A stretch of DNA of 64,000 nucleotides from Limnochorda sp. L945t (GTDB lineage: Bacteria; Bacillota; Limnochordia; Limnochordales; Geochordaceae): the NCBI RefSeq assembly GCF_035593305.1, contig NZ_CP141615.1, forward strand, positions 682,001 to 746,000, given 5' to 3'. The notes below the pieces were generated by a model, which saw only the letters and a list, made by a program, of their open reading frames with translations, did not search any database and had not been told where the DNA came from. Numbering within the stretch: position 1 is the stretch's first letter; every line of letters starts with the position of its first letter. The position numbers and the translations under genes were made by a program. This document shows positions 60,196 to 63,768 of the stretch, piece by piece.

Positions 60196-61143
60196 CTATC
60201 GTCCCCGCAGATGGGGGTCGAGGATGTCCCTTAGCCCCTCGCCGCATCCGTTGATGCTCATGACCAGGAGCAGGATCGCCAGGCCCGGTATCGTCGACAC
60301 CCACCAGGCGTCCACCAGGTGGTCCCGGCCTGCCGCCACCATACTACCCCACGCGGGGACGTCCGAGGGAGCCCCCAGCCCCAGGAAGCTCAGCGAGGCC
60401 TCCATGAGCACCATGTACCCCATCCTCGAAGTGGCGACGACGAGAAGCGTGGGTGCCACGTTGGGCAGGATCTCTTTCCACAGGATCCCGGCGCTCGATC
60501 GGCCGATCGCCCTGGCCGCCTCGACGTAGTCGCGGCCTTTGTGCGCCATCGTCTCGCCGCGAGCGATCCGGAAAAACTCCACCCACGCTTTGAACGACAG
60601 CGCCAGCACGAGATTGACCAAACCCGGCCCCAGGATCCCCATCACGAGGATGGCGAACAGCAGGTACGGAAAGGCCATCAACAGATCGGCGAAACGGGAC
60701 ACCACCTGGTCGAGCCGCCCTCCGAAGTACCCTGCGGCGGTCCCCAGCGCGGTGCCCACGACCCCCGAGATGACCACGGCCGCAGCCCCGACCGCCAGCG
60801 ACAGCCTGGCGCCGTAGAAAAGCCGCGACACGATGTCGCGCCCGAGTTCATCGGTCCCGAGCCAGTGTCCCGGTGCCCACCCTGGCACGGGCCAGGGGGG
60901 CGAAAGGCGCTCCCCCAGGCTGAACGCATCCGGGCCGTACGGGGCGACGACCGGCGCCAGGACGGCCATCCCGGCGAACAGGAGCAACCCGATGGCGCCC
61001 GCGAGCGCCATGGGATGGTGACGCCAGCGGCGCAGCAGGTCGCGCGCCGGGCTCGGCCCGGGCGGCCGAGCGCCCTCGTACCCCTCCGGCACCTCCTCTT
61101 CGGCCACGGCGGCGGGTTGGGCCACGTGAGCAGCCTCGGCCAC
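60196..61143 (-). CDS. dppC: Dipeptide/oligopeptide-type ABC permease (DppC-like)
   Basis: 315 residues. A 45-residue polar start is followed by about six membrane segments; the OppC-type region LGTDELGRDIVSRLFYGARL lies near 97 and the EAA-loop EAARAIGRSSAGILWKEILPN near 206 (core EAARAIG). It contacts the ATPase through this loop. It starts 5 bases after dppB stops. The start (GTG) lacks a clear ribosome site, so it depends on coupling or is slightly different. Confidence 0.9.
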   Translation of the reverse strand: MAEAAHVAQPAAVAEEEVPEGYEGARPPGPSPARDLLRRWRHHPMALAGAIGLLLFAGMAVLAPVVAPYGPDAFSLGERLSPPWPVPGWAPGHWLGTDELGRDIVSRLFYGARLSLAVGAAAVVISGVVGTALGTAAGYFGGRLDQVVSRFADLLMAFPYLLFAILVMGILGPGLVNLVLALSFKAWVEFFRIARGETMAHKGRDYVEAARAIGRSSAGILWKEILPNVAPTLLVVATSRMGYMVLMEASLSFLGLGAPSDVPAWGSMVAAGRDHLVDAWWVSTIPGLAILLLVMSINGCGEGLRDILDPHLRGR

Positions 61144-61148
61144 GGCCG

Positions 61149-62162
61149 TCAGGCGGAGGCCATGCGCGGGTTGAGCAGCGCGTAGGCGAGGTCGACCAGT
61201 AGATTGGCGGCCAGGAAGGTCAGCGCGTAGAGCATGACCGCTCCCTGGACGACCGGGTAGTCGCGCGCGAAGATGGCCCCCACCACCAGCCTTCCGAGGC
61301 CGGGCCAGCTGAAGACCGTCTCGACGATCATGTTGCCACCCAGCAATACCCCCATCTGCAGCCCCAGCACGGTCACGGCCGGTACCAGGGCATTGCGCAG
61401 GGCATGCCGGAACACCACGTGCCACTCGTCCACCCCCTTCGCCCGGGCTACCCGGACATAGTCGGCGCGCAGTACCTCGAGCATGCTCGATCGCACGACC
61501 CGCGAGAGGATGGCCGCCAGCTCCGCTCCCAGGGTCACGGCCGGCAGGATCAGGTGCAGCACGGCCGAGCGAAACACTTCCCAGTCCCGCGCGAGCAACG
61601 CGTCGATGGTCATCCACCCCGTGACGGCCGGCACGTCCATGCCGGGGTCGAGCCGGCCCGAAGTGGGCAGCCATCCCAGCGCGACCCCGAAGACCAGGAT
61701 GAGCACGAGCCCCAGCCAGAAGGCGGGCATGGAGATCCCGGCGAACGCCGCGCCCATGGTTGCATGATCCAGGAAGCTGCGGTGGCGCAAGGCAGCGATC
61801 ACCCCCGCCGGCACCGCGACGAGCACGGCAAAGACCCCTGCTGCCACCGCCAGCTCCAGGGTCGCCGGCAGCGACTGCCCGATGAGCTCGGTCACCGGCT
61901 GGGAGTTGCGGATGGAGCGCCCCAGGTCCCCGTGCAGCAGCCTGCCGGCGAAGCGCACCGCCTGTTGCCCCAGCGGGCGGTCGAGGTCGAGCTGGGCCCG
62001 AAGCGCCTGGATTTCCTGTTGGCTGACGTTGCCGGCCTGGCCCATCATGGCGTCCACCGGGTCCCCCGGCAGCAGCCGCAACAGCAAGAACGTCAGCAAC
62101 ACGACGCCGGCTGCCAGCGGCACCGCCGATACCAGCCGGCGCACCACGCGCACGCCTTTCAC
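61149..62162 (-). CDS. dppB: Dipeptide/oligopeptide-type ABC permease (DppB-like)
   Basis: 337 residues with six membrane segments. LLRLLPGDPVDAMMG near 27, LPATLELAVAAGVFA near 98 and the EAA-loop ADYVRVARAKGVDEWHVVFR near 232 are standard for the DppB/OppB family, as is the end AYALLNPR. The GTG start follows AAGGGAGAG. It lies 31 bases after the binding-protein gene. Confidence 0.92.
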   Translation of the reverse strand: MKGVRVVRRLVSAVPLAAGVVLLTFLLLRLLPGDPVDAMMGQAGNVSQQEIQALRAQLDLDRPLGQQAVRFAGRLLHGDLGRSIRNSQPVTELIGQSLPATLELAVAAGVFAVLVAVPAGVIAALRHRSFLDHATMGAAFAGISMPAFWLGLVLILVFGVALGWLPTSGRLDPGMDVPAVTGWMTIDALLARDWEVFRSAVLHLILPAVTLGAELAAILSRVVRSSMLEVLRADYVRVARAKGVDEWHVVFRHALRNALVPAVTVLGLQMGVLLGGNMIVETVFSWPGLGRLVVGAIFARDYPVVQGAVMLYALTFLAANLLVDLAYALLNPRMASA

Positions 62163-62193: not shown

Positions 62194-63768
62194 TCACCGG
62201 ACGGCGTAGCCCGCCTCCTGCAGGAGCTGGCGCGCCTTGTCGGGGTCGTACGGGTAGGGCTTCAACCGTTCGTCGTAGCCGAAACCGCTCGGCAGCATGG
62301 CCGTTGCGACCCGGTGCGCGTACCCCCGGTAAAGGGCTTCGAGGATCTCGTCCCAGTCGACGGCGTAGTTGAGCGCCCGGCGAACCCGGGGATCCTTCAA
62401 GCGGTCGTTGTTGAGCTCGATCTCGTAAAGCCGCGTGCCGGGCGCCACCTTGACCTGCACGCCCCGTGCCCTCTCCAGCCGGTCGACCGCGTCGGGCGGC
62501 ACCTCCTGGATGATGTGCGCCTCCCCGGCCAGCAGGGCGGCGATGCGGCTGCCCGGTTCGGGCATCATGCGGAAGACGATCCGGCGGATCCTGGCCGGCC
62601 CGACCGGCGGGAGTTGGGGCGAACCGCCGTAGTAGCCGTCGAATCGCTCCAGCACGATGTCCCCGTCGAGGCGGCCGCGCACGAACTTGAACGGCCCCGC
62701 GCCCACGGGATGCCGGACGAACCCGGCGAGGCCCACTTGCTCCATGTACTTGTGCGGCACGATCTGCGTGTGGACGAGCAGTTGCAGGAAGACGGGGGAA
62801 GGGTTTTTCAACGTCATCTTGACGGTGTAGTCGTCCACTTTCTCGACTTTGGACAGGGGCCCCAGCAGCCCGAGCCTGGGCGACGGGCGGCCGTCGAGCC
62901 CCTTTGGGGAGAGGATGCGCTCGAACGTGAAGACCACGTCCTCGGCGGTCAACGGGTCACCGTTGTGGAAGCGGACGCCTCTGCGCAATTTGAATACATA
63001 CGTCGTGGCATGGGGCTGCTGCCACGACTCGGCGATTTCCGGGACGACCTCGCCGTCGGGGGTGCGGGTCACCAGCCCGTCGAACATGTTGCGCAGCACC
63101 GTCTCGGTGTCCCGATCCCGGTGATCGGCCGGGTCGAAGCTCTGGATACGATCGGCGCGTAAGCCCACGACGAGGGTGGTGCCGCCCTGGAGTTCCACGT
63201 CGTGGAGATTGATGCGGTTGTCGACCGAGGGGCGCCAGTTGCTCACCCGGGCCGACGCCGCCTCGATGGTGTCGAGGTAGTATCCGAAGATCCAGGGTGC
63301 ATCCTCGTACAGGATGCGCTGCGCCTTCACGTAGGCGTCCCGGGCCTTGGCCTCGTCCATGGTGGTCGACGCTGCGTCGAAGAGCCGGTCGACTTCCGGA
63401 TTGGAGTAAAACGAGAAGTTGCCGCGATCTTGCGTGCGCAGCTTGGGAATGGCCAGATCGAACGGCGAGAACGTGGCGCTTCCCCAGTCGGTGGCGTAGG
63501 CGTCTCGGGTGCCTTCTTGCGCCTCGGCGAGAAGCGTTTGGTATTCCCACACCCGGACCTGGGCGTCCACCCCGATCTGCCGCAGGTACCCTGCGATGGC
63601 CTGGAGCTCGGCCTCCCGGTTCTTGGCTCCGTCGAGCACGAGCCGGAGCACCTTGCCCTGGGCGAGCGCACCACCGGAAACGCTGCTCGACAGGCCTACC
63701 AGCAGGCTCGCCAGGAGCGCGGGCCACGCCAGAGCCTGCCCCCACCGGGACTGCGTGCGTCGAGCCAT
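62194..63768 (-). CDS. Circularly permuted dipeptide-type ABC substrate-binding protein
   Basis: 524 residues of the SBP_bac_5 (DppA/OppA) family in permuted order. A signal peptide ends near residue 36 (GALA). Residues of about 39-193 (LRLVLDGAKNREAELQAIAG through DNRINLHDVEL) correspond to what is normally the C-terminal part. After QGG, residues 196-524 correspond to the normal mature N-terminal part: TTLVVGLRADRIQSFDPAD, FDGLVTRTPDGEVVPEIAESW, GVRFHNGDPLTAEDVVFTF near 264, through RRALNYAVDWDEIL near 463. The chain stops at YDPDKARQLLQEAGY, exactly where the usual protein would continue into the part found at the front. Both termini of normal family members lie in the same lobe, so the fold can tolerate this. 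The reading frame is continuous, and the permease genes follow, so it is probably functional. Confidence 0.85.
   Translation of the reverse strand: MARRTQSRWGQALAWPALLASLLVGLSSSVSGGALAQGKVLRLVLDGAKNREAELQAIAGYLRQIGVDAQVRVWEYQTLLAEAQEGTRDAYATDWGSATFSPFDLAIPKLRTQDRGNFSFYSNPEVDRLFDAASTTMDEAKARDAYVKAQRILYEDAPWIFGYYLDTIEAASARVSNWRPSVDNRINLHDVELQGGTTLVVGLRADRIQSFDPADHRDRDTETVLRNMFDGLVTRTPDGEVVPEIAESWQQPHATTYVFKLRRGVRFHNGDPLTAEDVVFTFERILSPKGLDGRPSPRLGLLGPLSKVEKVDDYTVKMTLKNPSPVFLQLLVHTQIVPHKYMEQVGLAGFVRHPVGAGPFKFVRGRLDGDIVLERFDGYYGGSPQLPPVGPARIRRIVFRMMPEPGSRIAALLAGEAHIIQEVPPDAVDRLERARGVQVKVAPGTRLYEIELNNDRLKDPRVRRALNYAVDWDEILEALYRGYAHRVATAMLPSGFGYDERLKPYPYDPDKARQLLQEAGYAVR

Follow-up and report, generated by a model that had tools for sequence, protein, structure and literature searches.

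The window, that is, the whole stretch of 64,000 nucleotides that was analyzed, encodes on its reverse strand a substrate-binding protein (SBP) followed by two inner-membrane permeases (Table 1). The SBP gene is an open frame that starts with ATG behind a Shine-Dalgarno-like stretch (AGAGGGG). The N terminus of its product, read by eye and without a predictor, shows a hydrophobic segment and an AxA site, and the mature protein starts at the strand VLRLVLD. Identity to orthologs is 75% and about 30% in the signal peptide, versus 95% and 81 to 84% in the mature part. The permeases carry the domains PF00528 and PF19300 in one case and PF00528 and PF12911 in the other. Dpp/Opp-type importers are recognized by two permeases next to the SBP, which are present here, and by two ATPases, which are not: no ATPase genes (D and F) were found adjoining this copy of the SBP. 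ATPases do adjoin most of its relatives, as well as a second permuted SBP of the same genome. For the importer encoded with the operon genes at 60196 to 62162 to work, its ATPases would have to be supplied by other parts of the genome.

Table 1. Features of the permuted SBP locus and further permutants with coordinates
Feature	Position	Strand	Evidence or remark
SBP of the SBP_bac_5 family, circularly permuted (group A), 524 aa	62194..63768	-	Profile, homologue and rotation evidence
Signal peptide, residues 1-36, predicted cut ALA/QGK (cut between the two), no lipobox Cys	63661..63768	-	Read from sequence
Segment that normally ends the chain (C-terminal), residues 39-192, placed first	63193..63654	-	Matches DppA beyond residue 343
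Junction, residues 193-197 (LQGGT): old C terminus NRINLHDVEL to old mature N terminus TTLVVG	63178..63192	-	
Segment that normally begins the chain (N-terminal), residues 197-521, placed last	62206..63180	-	Superposes on DppA 1-343
New C terminus, AVR-stop right after the KARQLLQEAGY helix	62194..62205	-	Position conserved in orthologs
Inner-membrane permease, DppB/OppB type, next gene	61149..62162	-	Shares 49-55% identity with its counterpart adjoining normal-order orthologs
Inner-membrane permease, DppC/OppC type	60196..61185	-	ORF open to 61674; start probably near 61150-61185, past the DppB-type stop
Second permutant of the window genome (G000), group B, OppA-type	about C1 2,115,789-2,117,663; L010:7789-9663	+	
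Group D permutants	L245:5595-7439; L249-L257	- (L245)	Conserved at about 59-66% across f51, f76 and f86

The two segments of this SBP come in swapped order. PF00496 (SBP_bac_5) matched the protein in two stretches (280.3 bits, over the curated cut-off of 32.4), with profile positions 290 to 363 lying upstream of positions 1 to 282, an order also seen in a whole-genome search with this profile. BLASTP against normal-order orthologs likewise returned a long piece (residues 198 to 520 of the window protein; 47 to 49% identity; E = 1e-97 to 1e-100) and a short one (residues 38 to 192; 42 to 49% identity; E = 1e-30 to 1e-36). For a rotation test, we scored the protein against an HMM of length 482 that was trained on 11 orthologs in normal order. 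In native order the protein matched this model in two pieces (369.6 and 147.3 bits), and un-rotated at the junction it gave a single match of 532.4 bits spanning model positions 4 to 481. The best of 200 random rotations was cut at most 1 residue from the predicted junction. The swapped matches and the rotation test thus confirm the permutation far beyond chance, which we rejected as the source of the order. A sequence-only reading of the locus had described a naturally permuted SBP_bac_5 protein, made of a signal peptide, then the segment that usually ends the chain, then the segment that usually begins it. The profile, BLASTP, and HMM results agree with it, and the junction that it had put near 63180 to 63195 was located at 63178 to 63192. 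A normal-order alignment of equal quality, the rival that it had named, fails, since the native order scores only as two pieces. The canonical segment order of SBP_bac_5 is therefore not met (PF00496 order and rotation test). Judged by its sequence, the protein is a homologous, topologically permuted variant of this family, within cluster C, and not a canonical member. Among the chains listed by PDB sequence searches, none was collinear with the protein across both segments, and the Pfam and NCBIfam scans contained no dedicated family for the permuted form.

The finding came from a single contig, without reads, and an assembly error or chimera could in principle have joined pieces of a normal gene in the wrong order. 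Other assemblies leave practically no room for this. The identical order was found at full length in two other genomes of the same family (82% in G001 and 80% in G002) and in MAG Bu05 (94%), a separately assembled close relative that is apparently of the same species as Carboxydochorda subterranea L945 (PMC11456536). The sequence-only reading had proposed to look for such relatives and had named misassembly as a refutation; the latter fails on these separate assemblies. The same order recurs at 54 to 75% identity in families f24, f64, and others. The new termini are conserved in the orthologs, with the mature start at VLRLVLD and the stop just past EAGY, and no leftover pieces were found near the window locus. 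The second permutant is likewise present in other assemblies, and both permutants of the genome (A, in the window, and B) are 94 to 99% identical between the window genome and MAG Bu05. From this identity and the species assignment of Bu05, the window is inferred to derive from C. subterranea or a closely allied species, a diderm member of Limnochordales.

A true permutant could still be a decaying, nonfunctional relic whose frame merely remains open, and two orthologs do carry stops: that of permutant B in G001 (L042) has a single in-frame TGA and that of A in G286 has a TAG. We nevertheless find a relic highly improbable, given the substitution pattern, the conserved termini, the conserved operon, and a confident AlphaFold2 model. 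The dN/dS between species was 0.15 to 0.21 over the mature chain of the window protein, and 0.26 to 0.31 for the 21 codons around the junction (0.11 to 0.31 overall, with both segments and the junction considered). From these ratios, the window protein is inferred to be under purifying selection in both segments and across the junction. We conclude that it is a real and conserved natural circular permutant, which is expected to be functional, although there are no protein, binding, or transport data.

The input alignment for the AlphaFold2 model of the window protein (pLDDT of 85.2, pTM of 0.87) consisted of distant relatives (about 20 to 25% identity), with normal-order members entered as separate pieces; the model of permutant B reached a pLDDT of 96.1 and a pTM of 0.91. 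As the sequence-only reading would require, the predicted fold is two-lobed with three domains. Its alignment with known SBPs, at Z scores of 24 to 27, covers the N-terminal two thirds of those chains. Sequential structural alignment placed model residues 161 to 488 on DppA 1 to 343 (Z = 25.2, rmsd = 2.5, 318 residues) and ended where the segment order changes; the model of permutant B behaves likewise against OppA-type proteins. The sequential aligner leaves the permuted third uncovered, and the structure alignments involved only the window and related loci, with the closest relatives left out. All the sequence and fold matches listed for the window protein are cluster C proteins. In OppA-type proteins both native termini lie in domain I, and joining them should therefore be easy. 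The cut that opened the chain in the window protein falls in domain III.

Normal-order orthologs were identified in the sister families f2 and f3 of Limnochordales (L014 to L019). They occupy the same operon position as the window protein, in the order SBP, DppB-type permease, and DppC-type permease, and align with it at 42 to 51% identity in two segments (47 to 51% over the long one). In contrast to it, they keep the canonical order, with the signal peptide joined to the old N terminus. Both segments of the window protein have these same orthologs as their nearest normal-order kin, and therefore one gene was rotated rather than two genes mixed. The idea of a chimera from two different SBPs was ruled out on this ground.

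The sequence-only reading had called the protein peptide binding, a description that found no support. In DppA, an aspartate (mature D408, i.e., precursor D436) binds the amino group of the peptide (PMC12136057). The corresponding position in the window protein, by alignment to 3m8u, is Ala98, and the protein should therefore not be called a peptide-binding protein. The motif with this aspartate is also absent from the normal-order orthologs and is kept in permutant B (WGPDYDDP). The ligand of the window protein is thus probably not a simple peptide, although binding itself is inferred and there are no binding data. Given its place in the SBP slot of an importer operon, the most likely role of the protein is to capture a solute and hand it over to the two permeases. 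Permutants adjoin importer permeases in nearly all the loci that were checked.

Permuted SBPs are not restricted to this locus. When 299 genomes of the phylum were scanned with a junction profile, the matches separated cleanly: 25 spanned the full profile at E ≤ 1e-61, and the rest, at E ≥ 1e-44, covered half of it, apart from a few weaker full-span matches. Reading of the loci after this Bacillota scan led to four permuted groups, A to D, and by our own count about 29 of the 299 sampled genomes carry at least one permutant. These counts are lower bounds, since only 10 to 15 candidates per genome were scored and the rows of the profile came from A and B. Group A, which includes the window protein, occurs in families f1, f24, f29, f64, f76, and f120, group B in f1, f4, f64, and f127, and group C in f21, f34, f64, and one Actinomycetota genome (L170, L171, L172, L173, L191, L193, L210, and L244 are the group C loci). 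Outside Bacillota, an Actinomycetota scan around G353 (198 genomes) yielded one permutant, of group C by sequence, and in a Pseudomonadota scan around G354 (249 genomes) none of the nine junction-profile matches at E ≤ 1e-33 was permuted. Scanning around a Fictibacillus genome sampled Bacillota once more and found nothing further. Going by these comparisons, the window permutant is neither unique nor recent: it belongs to a conserved family, beside which there are at least three further permutant groups.

Groups A, B, and C were all opened in the same loop, at about DppA residue 343/344, in domain III. Permutant B of the window genome (G000 positions 2,115,999 to 2,117,660, in locus L010) is an OppA-type member of the family and belongs to another subfamily than A; it is conserved at 58 to 99% and heads a complete OppABCDF-type operon (SBP-B-C-D-F). 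Apart from its lone TGA, its G001 ortholog L042 is intact and conserved, which indicates recent decay or a sequencing error. Lipoboxes are present in the group C members that were read and in the group A members of f24. Group D is cut at another loop, at about DppA 201/203, so that the chain begins at about DppA residue 203. Its architecture, N(198-334)-C-N(3-199), is consistent across 11 loci, of which one is truncated at the end of its contig, and adjacent duplicate copies occur in three genomes (G301, G324, and G802). Permutants of different groups co-occur (A+B, A+B+C, or A+D) in seven genomes (G000, G108, G180, G235, G204, G301, and G324). This hints that some lineages favor permuted SBPs, although kinship was not accounted for.

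The shared loop of A, B, and C, and the presence of two or three groups in one genome (A and B in G000; A, B, and C in G108), might suggest that these three descend from one ancient permuted protein, the normal order having been regained in many lineages. Trees of the un-rotated sequences speak against it: each of the three groups lies among normal-order proteins, group A being sister to its normal-order orthologs with full support. AU tests rejected a single clade for A and C (P = 1e-4), for A and B (P = 1e-43), and for B and C (P = 8e-7), and many exact reversions would be required. A single origin is accordingly very unlikely. Since every pairing of A, B, and C is rejected, the origins number at least three; counting D, whose cut differs, they are probably four. 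This estimate is bounded by the trees, which rest on quick searches; group D sits on a long branch, and the placement of the normal-order relative L083 within group B is unresolved (support of 43).

How the order was swapped is less clear. Tandem duplication followed by fusion and trimming is the oldest of two main models of permutation, and fission with re-fusion is also accepted (PMC3320104). The in-frame tandem duplication suggested by the sequence-only reading remains plausible in that adjacent head-to-tail SBP copies exist, but no duplication intermediate (N-C-N-C or C-N-C) was found among 253 SBP frames. The duplication step is therefore inferred and the route is unproven. The missing intermediate also leaves room for the joining of two half-genes in opposite order after fission. 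Only 7 of the 253 frames hold one segment alone, and none of these, which were not followed individually, was shown to be a free half-gene. Adjacent whole duplicates were seen, on the other hand, both in group D (in the three genomes named above) and at two other loci. Fission and re-fusion thus seem unlikely. At the two other loci (L085:2828-6268 and L099:341-3568), the genes are adjacent head-to-tail duplicates of normal-order SBPs, a possible substrate for permutation by duplication. They had looked like rotated SBPs at first and were rejected as such.

Taken as a whole, the reading that we favor, with a probability of about 0.9, is that the window encodes a working, circularly permuted SBP of the Dpp/Opp type, and that permutation occurred independently at the same loop in B and C, with D permuted at another loop. 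The signal peptide, known only as a sequence pattern, would export the protein. The usual C-terminal third would come first, followed by a short new linker in lobe I and by the N-terminal two thirds, an order read from the sequence. According to the AlphaFold2 model, the chain would stop within the lobe II loop (domain III) at which the normal chain runs on, and the whole would fold into the normal two-lobed Venus flytrap. The solute that it should then bind is probably no simple peptide, and the protein should dock on the pair of adjoining permeases, both binding and transport being inferred. It appears to replace the normal-order SBP of its orthologs in the same operon, as the synteny shows. 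Group A would have been permuted once, either in an ancestor of several Bacillota families or with later spread between them; B, which is also found in the window genome, and C would have been permuted independently at the same loop, and D at a different one. The likeliest route, itself inferred, would be tandem gene duplication, fusion, and trimming, with the signal peptide kept or regained. The exported or lipid-anchored N terminus would thereby shift from lobe I to lobe II.

This shift raises the possibility that the permutations are convergent. At least four separate permutations of SBP_bac_5 in Bacillota and beyond, three of them at one loop, could have arisen because selection favors an exported or lipid-anchored N terminus on lobe II rather than lobe I, with the cause in export, tethering, or folding order. 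We put this forward tentatively and lean somewhat against it. Convergence on one loop would fit a tethering or export cause but also a simple structural tolerance.

Circular permutations in nature have often occurred only once and long ago, and are difficult to align. In SBP_bac_5, by contrast, the same operon still holds close orthologs in normal order elsewhere, and permutation has struck one loop on at least three occasions and a second loop once. With close orthologs, recurrence, and proteins that are expected to be soluble and assayable, long-standing questions become testable: which loops tolerate new termini, how much folding order or the place of the signal or lipid anchor weighs in export and docking, and by which routes permutation proceeds. 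The family is thus a natural experiment on the tolerance of proteins to re-wiring. It is also a warning, as standard domain annotation shows such permutants as two partial domains and masks the rearrangement.

The sequence-only reading knew of no such permutant. This stands for SBP_bac_5, for which we found none in the literature with a search that missed most subscription journals, but a permuted SBP of another cluster was already known. TpMglB-2 (Tp0684) of Treponema pallidum, classified as "Type Ic / Cluster Bc," is the closest precedent (PMC4990184). It is, like the window protein, a natural permuted SBP of an ABC importer that keeps the two-lobed fold, is encoded in an importer operon, and is found in a bacterial clade; it differs in its structural cluster (B/type I, against cluster C by all the listed matches of the window protein), in binding sugar, and in its cut. 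A tethering or export reason was proposed there for its permutation. In the portion of that source that was consulted, recurrent independent origins, as found for the SBP_bac_5 groups, are not described. The permuted part of TpMglB-2 is too diverged for sequence alignment, whereas the window protein has normal-order orthologs at 48 to 51% identity and the event can be read directly. With the other cluster C SBPs, namely, DppA, OppA, GbpA, and AppA (1dpp, 1ola, 3m8u, 1xoc, 5u4o, and 6npo), the window protein shares the fold, the operon partners, and, once un-rotated, homology over the full length. It differs from DppA/OppA-type proteins in the order of its segments and in its termini, which are on lobe II instead of lobe I. 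Circular permutation of SBPs was therefore known already; what is new is its occurrence in SBP_bac_5, its recurrence, and the close normal-order orthologs in the same operon.
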